This document shows positions 6,670 to 9,752 of a stretch of 32,700 bases of DNA, one piece after another. Each line of letters opens with the position of its first letter. Positions within the stretch are counted from its first letter, which is position 1. The position numbers were made by a program, and so were the translations under genes. The notes under the pieces were generated by a model. It had not been told where the DNA came from. It was given only the letters and a program-made list of their open reading frames with translations, and made no database searches. Origin of the DNA: Burkholderiales bacterium (GTDB lineage: Bacteria > Pseudomonadota > Gammaproteobacteria > Burkholderiales > Burkholderiaceae_C); NCBI GenBank assembly GCA_947453625.1, contig CANGHK010000056.1, forward strand, positions 1 through 32,700. The letters run 5' to 3'.

Positions 6670-7827
6670 TCAATCGTTCTGATGGCTCCTGGGCCGGCGG
6701 CCGTGCTCTGGCTTGGCGTCCGCCCTTTGCCGGCGCTCGGCTTCGCGGGCGTCCTGGCCGCTCAGGCGCCGCCAGGCTTTTCTCCCCAGGTGGGCCGCCA
6801 GCAGGCCGATCGGCATCCGCAGCCAGTGCGAGCGCAGGTAGAGCAGCCAGCAGGCGACGCGACGGCCTGCGCTGGCGCAACTGTCATGGTCGGGTCTGAG
6901 GGCCTGGGCATAGAGATGCTGCATCCCCAGTGCAAGCGGCCACGCCGGGGGCGCCAGGCGCCGGTCGCGCATCACGTCATCGGGCACCGGCGTGGCCAGC
7001 ACCTGCGTGGTCATCCGCAGCGCATAGAAAAGCGGTCGGCCGGCACCCAGTCTGGCGCTGTGATCGAGCAGCGCATGCCAGAAGCCGGACCGCGGCCCGA
7101 AGTGCCGAATCAGGCCATCGAGATCGAACAGGTCGCGCAGGCCGTTGCCGAATTCGCCCTCGTGGAACAGGTGGATGGCGCTGTGCAGCAGCATCGATGT
7201 CGGTGGCAGGACGCACAGGCCCGGGAAGGCGGGCAGATCGACCCAGTGCTCGAACAGCGCTGCGCGGTCCAGACTGAGCCTGGCCGTCGGGGGCAGCAGT
7301 CCGTGGTGCACATCGAGGGTGGTGCCGCGCTGGCGGTGGTGCAGCGGTGGCAACTCGTGCATCCAGCGTCGGTAATAGCGCTGGTCATGGGGGCTGATGT
7401 CGTTGAAATGCCAGCCGTGGATCAACAGCGCGGTCTCGACGCGGGCCAGATCGGCATGCGGCACCAGGATGTCCACGTCGCTGAAGATCCGGGTGGCCGC
7501 AAAAGGCAAGCCCAACGCAGCGTAGGCCGCCCCCTTGAGCAGTGCCACCCGTTCGCAGTTGCCGTCCAGCGCGTCCGCGATGCAGGCCAGTTCCCAGCGC
7601 AGGGCGATGTCCTGGCGCTCGGCGATGCGAAGGGCGGACTCCAGGTGCAGGCGAGCGGCCGGCGGCACCGTGGTGCTGCCGCCGCGCTGCGACAGCGACT
7701 CGGCCAGGCGCGCCAGCAAGTTCGCGGCGCGGCCTTGGCGGATCAGCAAGTCCCACTGCGACAGGCTCAACCCGGCGGCTGTTGAGGGATCGAGCAGCAG
7801 GGCCTGGATCGAGGGCGCGGCGGGCAT
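6670..7827 (-). CDS. NTP_transf_5-type nucleotidyltransferase of the HPr-rel-A operon
   Basis: A 385-residue member of the uncharacterised nucleotidyltransferase family PF14907. It should transfer a nucleotidyl or related group from an NTP to an unknown acceptor in the cytoplasm. The active-site pattern is visible: LLKG at 96-99, then RIFSDVDILV (SDVD at 116-119, two metal-binding Asp) and a third Asp in LDVHHGL (D172). The C-terminus is basic (KAWRRLSGQDAREAERRQR onward) and looks disordered. It is the last gene of a four-gene unit, and its ATG follows the kinase stop by 1 nt. Relatives of this family occur with HPr-kinase-like enzymes in some lasso-peptide clusters, where they act on the phosphorylated peptide. 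That parallel is inferred here; the acceptor is unknown. Confidence 0.85.
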   Translation of the reverse strand: MPAAPSIQALLLDPSTAAGLSLSQWDLLIRQGRAANLLARLAESLSQRGGSTTVPPAARLHLESALRIAERQDIALRWELACIADALDGNCERVALLKGAAYAALGLPFAATRIFSDVDILVPHADLARVETALLIHGWHFNDISPHDQRYYRRWMHELPPLHHRQRGTTLDVHHGLLPPTARLSLDRAALFEHWVDLPAFPGLCVLPPTSMLLHSAIHLFHEGEFGNGLRDLFDLDGLIRHFGPRSGFWHALLDHSARLGAGRPLFYALRMTTQVLATPVPDDVMRDRRLAPPAWPLALGMQHLYAQALRPDHDSCASAGRRVACWLLYLRSHWLRMPIGLLAAHLGRKAWRRLSGQDAREAERRQRADAKPEHGRRPRSHQND

Positions 7828-7828
7828 C

Positions 7829-8743
7829 TCAGGCGTCAGTCTCGGCGAGCCGTTCGAACAGCGCGGCGGCCTCGGCCAGCGAGCCGTATTCGAAGTGCAG
7901 GCAACGGCAGCGGCCCACCAGATCGACCATCGCGTCGAAACCGCGGGAGCCGTGCAGGTCGTAGTTGAACGACTGCTCGGCCATCCGCAGCAAGGTGGTG
8001 GCGCGTTCTGCCGGCCTCAGCACGGCTGGCTGGTTGGCACGGTAGCGCGGCAGCACGACCCAGGCCGGGCAGGCCGGCTCCCGTCGACGCGCCACGCTGT
8101 CCTGAGGCGGGCCGAGCAGCGCCACCGTGCCCTTGGCGGTGTCAGGCACCGGCCGGCTCATCACCGCCCGGGGGGCAAACGCGCGAATCAAGTCTATCGA
8201 GCGATTTTTCAGGTTGACCGGTCTGGCCATGCCTGACAACTGTCCGGTGCCCATGTCGTAGAGCGCCAGTTCGTCCGACAGCAGCCGCCAGCCGCGCTGC
8301 GTCAACCCGGCCGCGAGTGTGCTCTTGCCCGACCCGGGTGGCGCTGGCAAGAGCAGCGCCCGGCCGCCACGCTCGAGCACCGCCGCGTGGATGATCAGGT
8401 ACTGGTGGGCGTGCGCGGCCACGCACCAGTTCAGCCCCCACTCCAGCATCGGCAGCGCGTGCTGGCGTGGCAGCGGCAGGAAGGCGGGTTTGCCGTCGTG
8501 GTGAAAGCGGGCCCGGGGCTTGAAGCCGCCGGCCAGTCCGCGCTCCGCGGTGATGGCGACATGGAAATCGGCAAAACCGTCAGCGGACTGCACCTCGAAT
8601 TCACCGTACAGCCTGGCTATGTCGGCCACCAGCGTCGCGACATCGGTCTGGATGCGGGCCACGAAAGGGTGTATGTCGAGCAGCAGGGTATTTTCACGCA
8701 GCCGCCGGGATAACTCGGCGTGTGGCAGCTCTTCGAGTTTCAA
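7829..8743 (-). CDS. HprK-related kinase A (HPr-rel-A system)
   Basis: A 304-residue P-loop kinase related to HPr kinase/phosphorylase. The classic core is visible: IIHAAVLERGG with H119 (the His before the P-loop in HprK), Walker A APPGSGKST (134-142), then RGWRLLSDELALYD with the SDE acidic pair (156-158). It lacks the rest of canonical HprK, and no HPr (PtsH) gene is near, so its substrate is probably not HPr. The start is chosen as TTG at 8743, giving MKLEELPHAELSRRLREN, which fits how these proteins usually begin; no ATG is available close by. It starts 5 nt after the PqqD-like stop and ends 1 nt before the nucleotidyltransferase. The likely partner protein or peptide is encoded upstream in the operon. 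Confidence 0.88.
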   Translation of the reverse strand: MKLEELPHAELSRRLRENTLLLDIHPFVARIQTDVATLVADIARLYGEFEVQSADGFADFHVAITAERGLAGGFKPRARFHHDGKPAFLPLPRQHALPMLEWGLNWCVAAHAHQYLIIHAAVLERGGRALLLPAPPGSGKSTLAAGLTQRGWRLLSDELALYDMGTGQLSGMARPVNLKNRSIDLIRAFAPRAVMSRPVPDTAKGTVALLGPPQDSVARRREPACPAWVVLPRYRANQPAVLRPAERATTLLRMAEQSFNYDLHGSRGFDAMVDLVGRCRCLHFEYGSLAEAAALFERLAETDA

Positions 8744-8748
8744 CGCAG

Positions 8749-9063
8749 TCAGTTCAGGGTATCGATTAAGCCTATTCTCTGCATTTTTGACAACTCCGCA
8801 CGCACGCTGCTGCTGGCGTCGTCCAAGCTGTGGAAGATGTCGCTCAATTCGGCGGCCAGGTCGGCCACGCCGCGCGTACCGTCGGTCAGCAGGTCCAGCA
8901 GTTCCAGGGCCAGCGGCGACAGGCAGTGGGTGCTGCCCGAGCGCAGGTCATAGACGTTGCCCGACACCTCGTCGTGCCAACTGGCATGACGGAATCGGGC
9001 GGGTAGCGATCTTTGCCACCGGGCTTCATTTGGTACACCGTCGGGGGTCTTGGCGGTGTTCAT
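8749..9063 (-). CDS. HPr-rel-A system PqqD-family peptide-binding protein
   Basis: A 104-residue PqqD-like protein. PqqD domains are RiPP recognition elements, small winged helices that bind a leader or substrate peptide and present it to modifying enzymes. Typical sequence is RFRHASWHDEVSGNVYDLRSGSTHCLSPLALELLDLLTDGT (about 23-63), followed by a helical region DLAAELSDIF and a C-terminal LSKMQRIGLID. Its ATG overlaps the stop of the upstream Tat-signal gene by 4 nt (ATGA, 9060-9063), and the kinase follows after 5 nt, so all three are translationally linked. It probably delivers a substrate to the kinase; by position the Tat-signal protein is the first candidate, but this is inference. Confidence 0.87.
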   Translation of the reverse strand: MNTAKTPDGVPNEARWQRSLPARFRHASWHDEVSGNVYDLRSGSTHCLSPLALELLDLLTDGTRGVADLAAELSDIFHSLDDASSSVRAELSKMQRIGLIDTLN

Positions 9064-9752
9064 GGCGGCGCGATGAAATTATTTTCCAGGTAAGCGATGA
9101 TTTGGTCGCGTGTCCAAGCGCGGGGGCCTGTGGTGTTCGAGGGCGAATAGCGGCCATCCATCATTTCTTTGAGTTGGTCCGTGCCGTTCGACCGGAGGCA
9201 GGCGGCAATCACCGGGAACATCATCGAATTGAGCTTGGCGACGATCAGGTGGCTGTTGTAGGACGTGTTGCCCGCCGACGTCAAGACGGCGCCGACCTGT
9301 TGCCCAGCCGTCAGCGTGCCCGGGAAGGGTCCGGCCTGGCCGAACAGGTCTCCCAGGGTGTAGTCCTTGCGCAGTGCAGCGCCCTTGTTCTTGCTGTTGC
9401 CCTTGGGCTTGTAAGCCAAGGCGGTGGCCAGCGCGGTCCAGGGCGCGCTGGTCGGGGAATCGGCGCTCCACTGGCTGATCGTCCAGGTTGCGGTGACGTC
9501 CAGCGCGCTCGCCGCGTTGTGGGCGGCTGCGCTGGCGGTCGGGTTGACTTGTGCCGAGCCCCAGGCCGACGAGGTGCTGCAGGTGTAGGCGCGCACGGGT
9601 CGGCTGGCCAGCGTCATGGTCAGGGGCACTGCGCCCGCCGAGACACGCAGGAAACGACGGCGCCGATCTCGCGCCCCGGCGGCCGCGGTTTCTGGGGTCG
9701 GCACTGCCGGTTCGGGTGCCGGGGCCGGGCGATGCGGTTCGATGGGCGACAT
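9060..9752 (-). CDS. Tat-signal protein of unknown function, first gene of the HPr-rel-A operon
   Basis: A 230-residue protein with no family I recognise. Residues 1-25 are Pro/Ala-rich. A twin-arginine signal follows: RRRFLR (31-36, matching SRRxFLK), a weakly hydrophobic stretch VSAGAVPLTMTLA and a probable cleavage after VRA (A55). The mature part starts YTCSTSSAWGS and is Ser/Thr/Ala-rich to about residue 110, then more mixed, ending NNFIAPP. It has only two further cysteines (C58, C185), which could form a disulfide after export. Tat carries folded, cofactor-bearing or modified proteins, so the three downstream cytoplasmic genes could act on it before export. It could also be an independent secreted enzyme or structural protein. 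The start ATG at 9752 has no strong ribosome binding site. Confidence 0.75.
   Translation of the reverse strand: MSPIEPHRPAPAPEPAVPTPETAAAGARDRRRRFLRVSAGAVPLTMTLASRPVRAYTCSTSSAWGSAQVNPTASAAAHNAASALDVTATWTISQWSADSPTSAPWTALATALAYKPKGNSKNKGAALRKDYTLGDLFGQAGPFPGTLTAGQQVGAVLTSAGNTSYNSHLIVAKLNSMMFPVIAACLRSNGTDQLKEMMDGRYSPSNTTGPRAWTRDQIIAYLENNFIAPP

Follow-up and report, generated by a model that had tools for sequence, protein, structure and literature searches.

The stretch of DNA analysed here (the window) comprises 32,700 nucleotides (nt) of contig CANGHK010000056.1 from the Burkholderiales bacterium assembly GCA_947453625.1. Its minus strand carries, between positions 6670 and 9752, four open reading frames (ORFs) encoding a protein with a twin-arginine (RR) signal, a PqqD-family protein, an HprK-related kinase A and a PF14907 nucleotidyltransferase. 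This operon is probably a substrate-plus-modifier module, in which a protein exported by the twin-arginine translocation (Tat) pathway would be phosphorylated on a serine under the guidance of an RRE, the recognition element of ribosomally synthesised and post-translationally modified peptides (RiPPs), and the phosphate would then be capped. The proposal draws on the order of the genes, their co-occurrence in other genomes, the intact catalytic residues of the enzymes, an invariant serine with its context and the presence of TatC. The genes and residues concerned are the following:

9060..9752, minus strand: RR (Tat)-signal protein, the proposed substrate (230 aa, ATG start; no Pfam or NCBIfam family)
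9657..9662, minus strand: twin-arginine pair R31 R32 of the RR protein, invariant in 51/51 aligned proteins
9579-9581, minus strand: Cys58 of the RR protein, near SAWGS
9555..9569, minus strand: SAWGS motif of the RR protein, residues 62-66, with Ser66 (9555-9557) as the candidate acceptor and Ser62 at 9567-9569
8749..9063, minus strand: PqqD-family protein TIGR04353, the proposed RRE-like leader-binding adaptor (104 aa, ATG start; 45.5 bits, cut-off 35)
7829..8743, minus strand: HprK-related kinase A TIGR04352 (304 aa, TTG start; 376.9 bits, cut-off 200)
6670..7827, minus strand: PF14907 enzyme with nucleotidyltransferase fold (385 aa, ATG start; 178 bits, cut-off 31.2)

The four-gene arrangement is real and conserved. 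Successive genes are joined by a 4-nt overlap (-4), a 5-nt gap (+5) and a 1-nt gap (+1), exactly as claimed in an earlier note on this DNA, which had taken the four genes to be made as one unit. The same note assigned the kinase and the PqqD-family protein to the named cassette HPr-rel-A of NCBIfam, and both do score above the curated cut-offs of TIGR04352 and TIGR04353; the names of these two models, which is what was compared, mention no RR partner, motif or PF14907 enzyme. Related loci were taken from a kinase scan of genome contigs that gave 268, the best 80 being kept. The Tat-signal and nucleotidyltransferase genes, whose absence from other kinase-PqqD loci would have told against the note, recur there almost without fail: kinase and PF14907 stand together in 80/80 loci, the RR protein and the PqqD-family protein in 79/80, and all four in 79/80. 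In the genome of the exception (L065), an RR-family protein is represented elsewhere by its C-terminal part, which lies at a contig start with the signal out of view and is followed by a PqqD-type ORF with SGDTH. Matches on these relatives (L003-L082) use profiles trained on the same loci; the survey loci described next (L083-L142) are independent.

The survey covered 398 Pseudomonadota genomes, and TIGR04352 scored above its cut-off in 61 of them, that of the window included. Loci were obtained for 60 of these 61 kinase-positive genomes; the last (G173) holds a kinase fragment, and its other piece (L166) carries an RR protein and a PqqD-family protein beside the start of the kinase. Besides the window's own there are 59 survey loci, 52 with an adjacent RR-signal protein (on the opposite strand in L100) and seven without. 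Counted by genome, the partner lies beside the kinase in 54, elsewhere in six (as a pair with PqqD in G069, G125, G268 and G022, as an RR protein in G081 and G214) and was not found in one, G189, whose genome is 57% complete and whose kinase runs into a contig end. An RR-signal partner is thus near-universal (60/61), in support of the earlier note. The genome of L109 contains an RR+PqqD pair. The RR-family profile alone matched 39/61 kinase-positive against 4/337 kinase-negative genomes (Fisher p 1e-33), and the four latter matches, when read, looked like a hydrolase, an RR protein that is short and generic, an isolated TPGYWK segment and a sister cassette. As a separate observation, one locus of family f39 (L167, G144:C96) combines a sub-cut-off HprK-like kinase, a PqqD-like ORF, an RR-signal protein with GSCAPSACQPC and a PF14907 protein; this arrangement is possibly a sister cassette in f39 genomes.

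The proposed substrate has a signal that contains RRRRFL and closes with the AxA-like end TLASRPVRA. The signal spans about residues 29-55 and the mature part starts at about residue 56, the cleavage site being predicted by eye. Its likeness to Tat substrates lies in the twin-arginine signal, invariant in the 51 aligned proteins, and in TatC, which is present in the genome; export of the RR protein itself is a prediction. The protein belongs to no Pfam family, its best NCBIfam match is no better than E 0.19, and a sequence comparison with the PDB gave three weak matches (best E 0.026) that were judged to be chance. AlphaFold2 predicts a helical structure (mean pLDDT 81) in which the SAWGS segment (62-66) precedes the highest-confidence part, and a Foldseek search of this model against the PDB and viral models returned nothing at E<=0.001. 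The 51 aligned proteins of the window type are 19-38% identical to the window protein. Six relatives were compared with Pfam, of which five had no match and one had two weak sub-cut-off matches, and two compared with NCBIfam had none. Many RR partners (L064, L031 and relatives) also carry a C-x-G-x-TPGYWK-like segment and, downstream of it, an AALLNA stretch; no Pfam or NCBIfam model matched the partners of L064 and L031. One kinase-negative genome (L164, G342:C23) has the same segment within a large open frame, with no RR signal in the stretch printed.

Only R31, R32 and S66 are invariant among the 51 aligned proteins, while L48, R51, P52, A55, C58, S62, W95, L174 and N175 are kept in at least 90%. 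The final Ser of S[AG]xxS, counted with its variants, is conserved at 100% in 79/79 RR relatives; a few of these deviate, with S[VS]xxS, with T as the first residue or with one residue more. These relatives average 29 serines and threonines after residue 50, yet a single mature serine is invariant in the N-terminal family, about ten to eleven residues past the cleavage site in group A. A second type of RR protein was found in the survey, with mature parts that show no clear likeness. The pattern [ST]C[WFYLIM]xS[FLIMA] occurs in the last 45 residues of 40/52 survey partners, against 0.04 expected from shuffling those residues; this is the unbiased count, since group B was initially defined by the motif itself, which makes its invariance there circular (alignment A2 was chosen from that set). 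The other 12 consist of eleven of the window type and L115, which is outside both motifs. Seven more partners, found through an RR profile dominated by the signal, end in SCWNSF, SCWTSF, SCWSSF, SCLNSF, TCFASI, SCWTSL and SCWTSF, and the partner in G022, located through its PqqD, ends in SCWISFF. In L110 (2688-3017, minus strand) the mature part is only about 20 residues long and still ends in SCLDSFNGL; it could be a near-minimal substrate bridging to RiPP-type precursors, or a decayed gene.

The location of the serine follows the kinase clade. In a tree of the kinases from 140 loci, those with the N-terminal type (92) and those with the C-terminal types, including exceptions (48), form separate clades with a support of about 0.97; the labels were in part assigned wholesale, with loci lacking a local partner set to group B by default and L065 to group A. 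Both motifs have [ST]-[AGC]-x-x-S in common, frequently with a central W or F, from which we infer that they may be one recognition motif in two places. A cysteine almost always accompanies the serine, near it in group A (0.97) and, in groups B and C, as part of the motif itself. Such constancy would also be expected if the motif served for docking or had a structural role and the modification fell elsewhere, for example on the nearby cysteine, or were of another chemistry. This is distinctly unlikely, considering that L014 and L076 keep the serine with no cysteine near the motif, and that the HprK-type kinases of the precedents described below act on serine (PMC13381572, PMC8498205).

The signal region itself is conserved beyond the twin arginines, with T and L at 0.90 and 0.91 in group A and at 1.00 and 0.96 in group B, and P at 1.00 in B, a group picked here by its C-terminal motif and not by its signal. 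This conservation, the position of the group A serine about ten residues past the cleavage site, and the binding of Tat signals by redox enzyme maturation protein (REMP) chaperones (PMC3316669) would all suit a system of export proofreading, in which PqqD is a chaperone of the Tat signal and phosphorylation near the signal holds or releases the precursor, as a regulatory mark and not a lasting decoration. We regard this as quite improbable; the serine of the other clade lies close to the C-terminus and well away from the signal, and the presence of PF14907 in 61/61 kinase-positive genomes would be left unexplained.

The two enzymes of the proposed module have their catalytic landmarks intact. 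In the kinase these are Walker A PPGSGKST from residue 135, SDE from 156 and LKN from 178, and Walker A, D-E, K-N and other kinase residues are kept at 99-100% in the 140 loci. Its likeness to HprK consists of Walker A with neighbouring residues and of weak matches to PF07475 and to 1jb1; a sequence search of the PDB gave weak matches only, the best being HprK at E 0.042. With 16.5 bits for PF07475, against a gathering threshold of 33.3, it is by sequence no HPr kinase, and that canonical identity was rejected on score. In the PF14907 enzyme the landmarks are KG at 98-99, DxD at 117/119 and DxHH at 172-175, all kept at 99-100% across 121 PF14907 proteins. Its AlphaFold2 model (mean pLDDT 93.6) has the nucleotidyltransferases 5uvd, ANT(2'')-Ia and LnuA as Foldseek neighbours, none at E<=0.001, and by sequence the PDB yielded a single weak match (E 0.09). 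A PF14907 protein was found near the kinase in 41/59 survey loci within the DNA fetched. In one genome (L106:1438-3561) kinase and PF14907 are fused in a single open frame of 708 residues, and this natural fusion supports a consecutive action of the two. The window's genome contains a second PF14907 gene on contig C18 at about 76.5 kb (L001/L170), shortly after a gene for a 400-aa HprK-like protein, which reaches 29 bits with TIGR04355, far under the cut-off of 200; the RR-family profile matches in this genome at the window only.

At residue 42 the PqqD-family protein of the window has SGSTH in place of the SGDTH of most relatives. A motif pattern recovered a PqqD-family protein in 77/80 relatives and a profile found two of the three missed; trained on the loci of the relatives, the profile matched in 47/59 survey loci. 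In G069, G125, G268, G398 and G022, PqqD and the RR protein are neighbours at a distance from the kinase, and G185 has a second pair of this kind. That it stays paired with the RR protein off the kinase locus is as expected of an RRE-type adaptor.

The closest comparison is provided by the clusters for linear polyphosphorylated peptides (LPP) of Bacillota (LppA-K-B-S-D-N), which comprise an RRE, an HprK-like kinase, a nucleoside triphosphate (NTP) transferase, a leader protease of the signal-peptidase type and a transporter (PMC13381572). There, LppK adds several phosphates to Ser3 of the core, just past the leader, and the S3A substitution abolishes phosphorylation (PMC13381572). Both systems combine a precursor, a discrete RRE, an HprK-like kinase and an NTP transferase, a likeness at family level only (TIGR04353, TIGR04352, PF14907). 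The serine phosphorylated in LPP is near the start of a core whose leader is cut by the signal-peptidase-type enzyme, and in the window operon the candidate serine is near the predicted cleavage site. On the other hand, the window precursor is a 230-aa RR-signal protein with a confidently predicted helical domain and comes from another phylum. The archaeal-type signal peptidase I (TIGR02228) had 0 matches in the window's genome (control: matches in 8/14); no MsbA-like transporter was found in the four genes or in the flanking ORFs scanned, and the leader motif YxxPxVLxHQxIxFETxxS, as given in PMC13381572, was absent by reading from the 230-aa protein. The main text of the LPP paper makes no mention of Pseudomonadota, 'proteobacteri', Tat or twin-arginine.

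A second comparison is offered by the phospho- and phosphoglyco-lasso peptides pseudomycoidin and paeninodin. In these an HprK-like kinase also acts on serine, and in pseudomycoidin a nucleotidyltransferase then places one or two hexoses on the phosphate (PMC8498205); such clusters can include a sulfotransferase gene, which may be compared with L113 and L116 below. The operon and the flanking ORFs scanned, the part of the genome searched in this respect, hold no macrolactam synthetase or B2 leader protease, and a protein takes the place of the threaded peptide as the proposed substrate. Membership of the LPP or lasso systems was rejected, as their defining features fail. The literature searched, outside which most subscription papers lie, returned nothing on 'HPr-rel-A' or 'HprK-related kinase' and no paper joining three or more of HprK, PqqD, nucleotidyltransferase and Tat signal; it returned nothing under 'PF14907', which says little, accessions being rarely printed in papers.

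Because the parts, and a serine near the cleavage site, parallel LPP and pseudomycoidin, the following mechanism is proposed. The RR protein would start out as a precursor with a Tat signal peptide that also serves as leader; the PqqD-family protein would bind this leader and present the precursor; the HprK-type kinase would phosphorylate Ser66, the last residue of SAWGS, which lies some eleven residues inside the mature protein; the PF14907 enzyme would cap or extend the phosphate, a sugar being the likeliest addition by analogy with pseudomycoidin and a nucleotide the alternative; and the protein would then fold, leave through Tat and lose its signal peptide. Characterised systems serve as the model for the binding of the leader, for phosphorylation and capping, for the order of these steps and for export of the RR protein by Tat. 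The idea of cytoplasmic modification followed by Tat export, already put forward in the earlier note, stands as a plausible reading and can be refined, with the RR protein as the likely substrate and one fixed serine as candidate site. Its second part, phosphorylation followed by nucleotidyl transfer, may be wrong in the latter term, considering the hexose added to the phosphate by the pseudomycoidin enzyme (PMC8498205).

The surroundings of the C-terminal-type loci suggest a place for the modified protein in the cell envelope or its polysaccharide. Two such loci were examined, L116 and L121, and both adjoin the XrtA/PEP-CTERM amidotransferase TIGR03108 (875 and 846 bits); L116 has the glycosyltransferase TIGR03088 (472 bits) as a further neighbour. 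A tetratricopeptide repeat (TPR)-sulfotransferase (PF13469, 169-178 bits) comes right after the kinase in both of the group B loci that were tested for it (L113:5813-7513, L116:5555-7216). A tentative and bolder possibility, to which we give clearly less than even credence, is that the cassette is a bacterial system of protein phosphoglycosylation, in which the HprK-type kinase and PF14907 would build a serine-phosphate-linked sugar on a folded protein, the Tat signal would be a RiPP-type leader for PqqD, and the product would be exported to the envelope. In XrtA/PEP-CTERM loci the sugar may be sulfated or may anchor a surface polysaccharide, and the site would have moved between N-terminus and C-terminus together with the kinase.

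The position of L116 and L121 beside polysaccharide genes could also be read as a sign that the RR protein is a functional partner and no substrate. The target of kinase, PqqD and PF14907 would then be a different molecule, such as a small metabolite, a polysaccharide precursor or some other protein, and the RR protein would handle the resulting product outside the membrane. Pairs of kinase and PF14907 with no detected RR protein or PqqD (L001/L170 in the window's own genome, and several sub-cut-off kinases) favour this, as does PF14907 in 85/337 kinase-negative genomes. This reading is nevertheless unlikely: the serine is fixed in proteins that otherwise diverge fast, the L110 partner is little beyond signal plus motif, and PqqD remains with the RR protein.

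Several points weigh against the substrate-plus-modifier proposal. No family member is known to be modified, and the kinase and PF14907 enzymes are at most putative orthologues of LppK and LppN or of the pseudomycoidin enzymes. Deletion of LppN, the transferase, caused no visible change in the published host (PMC13381572), and capping is therefore the weakest step. Two of the components are not exclusive to the cassette, as PF14907 is found in 61/61 kinase-positive and 85/337 kinase-negative genomes, and TIGR04353 in 54/61 and 24/337. The seven kinase-positive genomes negative for TIGR04353 are G189 and six of family f13 (G318, G348, G375, G126, G340 and G015), whose cassettes (L124, L126, L128-L131) keep the RR protein, the kinase and PF14907, and in whose genomes TIGR04353 matches nothing. 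Only 116-305 nt precede the kinase there, and PqqD has therefore either diverged strongly or is missing. L115 matches neither motif, L129 and L130 match the N-terminal pattern poorly, the correlation of clade with motif is essentially one evolutionary change, and the invariant serine could instead be a structural or docking residue.

At the window locus the operon is flanked by genes for a phage-integrase-type recombinase, MarC, DUF455, a hexapeptide protein and HSP33. The flanking genes scanned are unrelated to it, and the four-gene unit therefore stands alone there. Promoter and terminator scans of the locus gave a signal at about shuffle level, and no fifth gene stood out as universal around the cassette, using a crude gene caller that is poor on GC-rich DNA.

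If the substrate-plus-modifier proposal is true, a named cassette carried by 61/398 sampled Pseudomonadota genomes would acquire a substrate, together with a probable site and a probable chemistry. RRE-guided phosphorylation and phosphoglycosylation would extend from small peptides to Tat-exported proteins, and PF14907 enzymes would gain a concrete assay.

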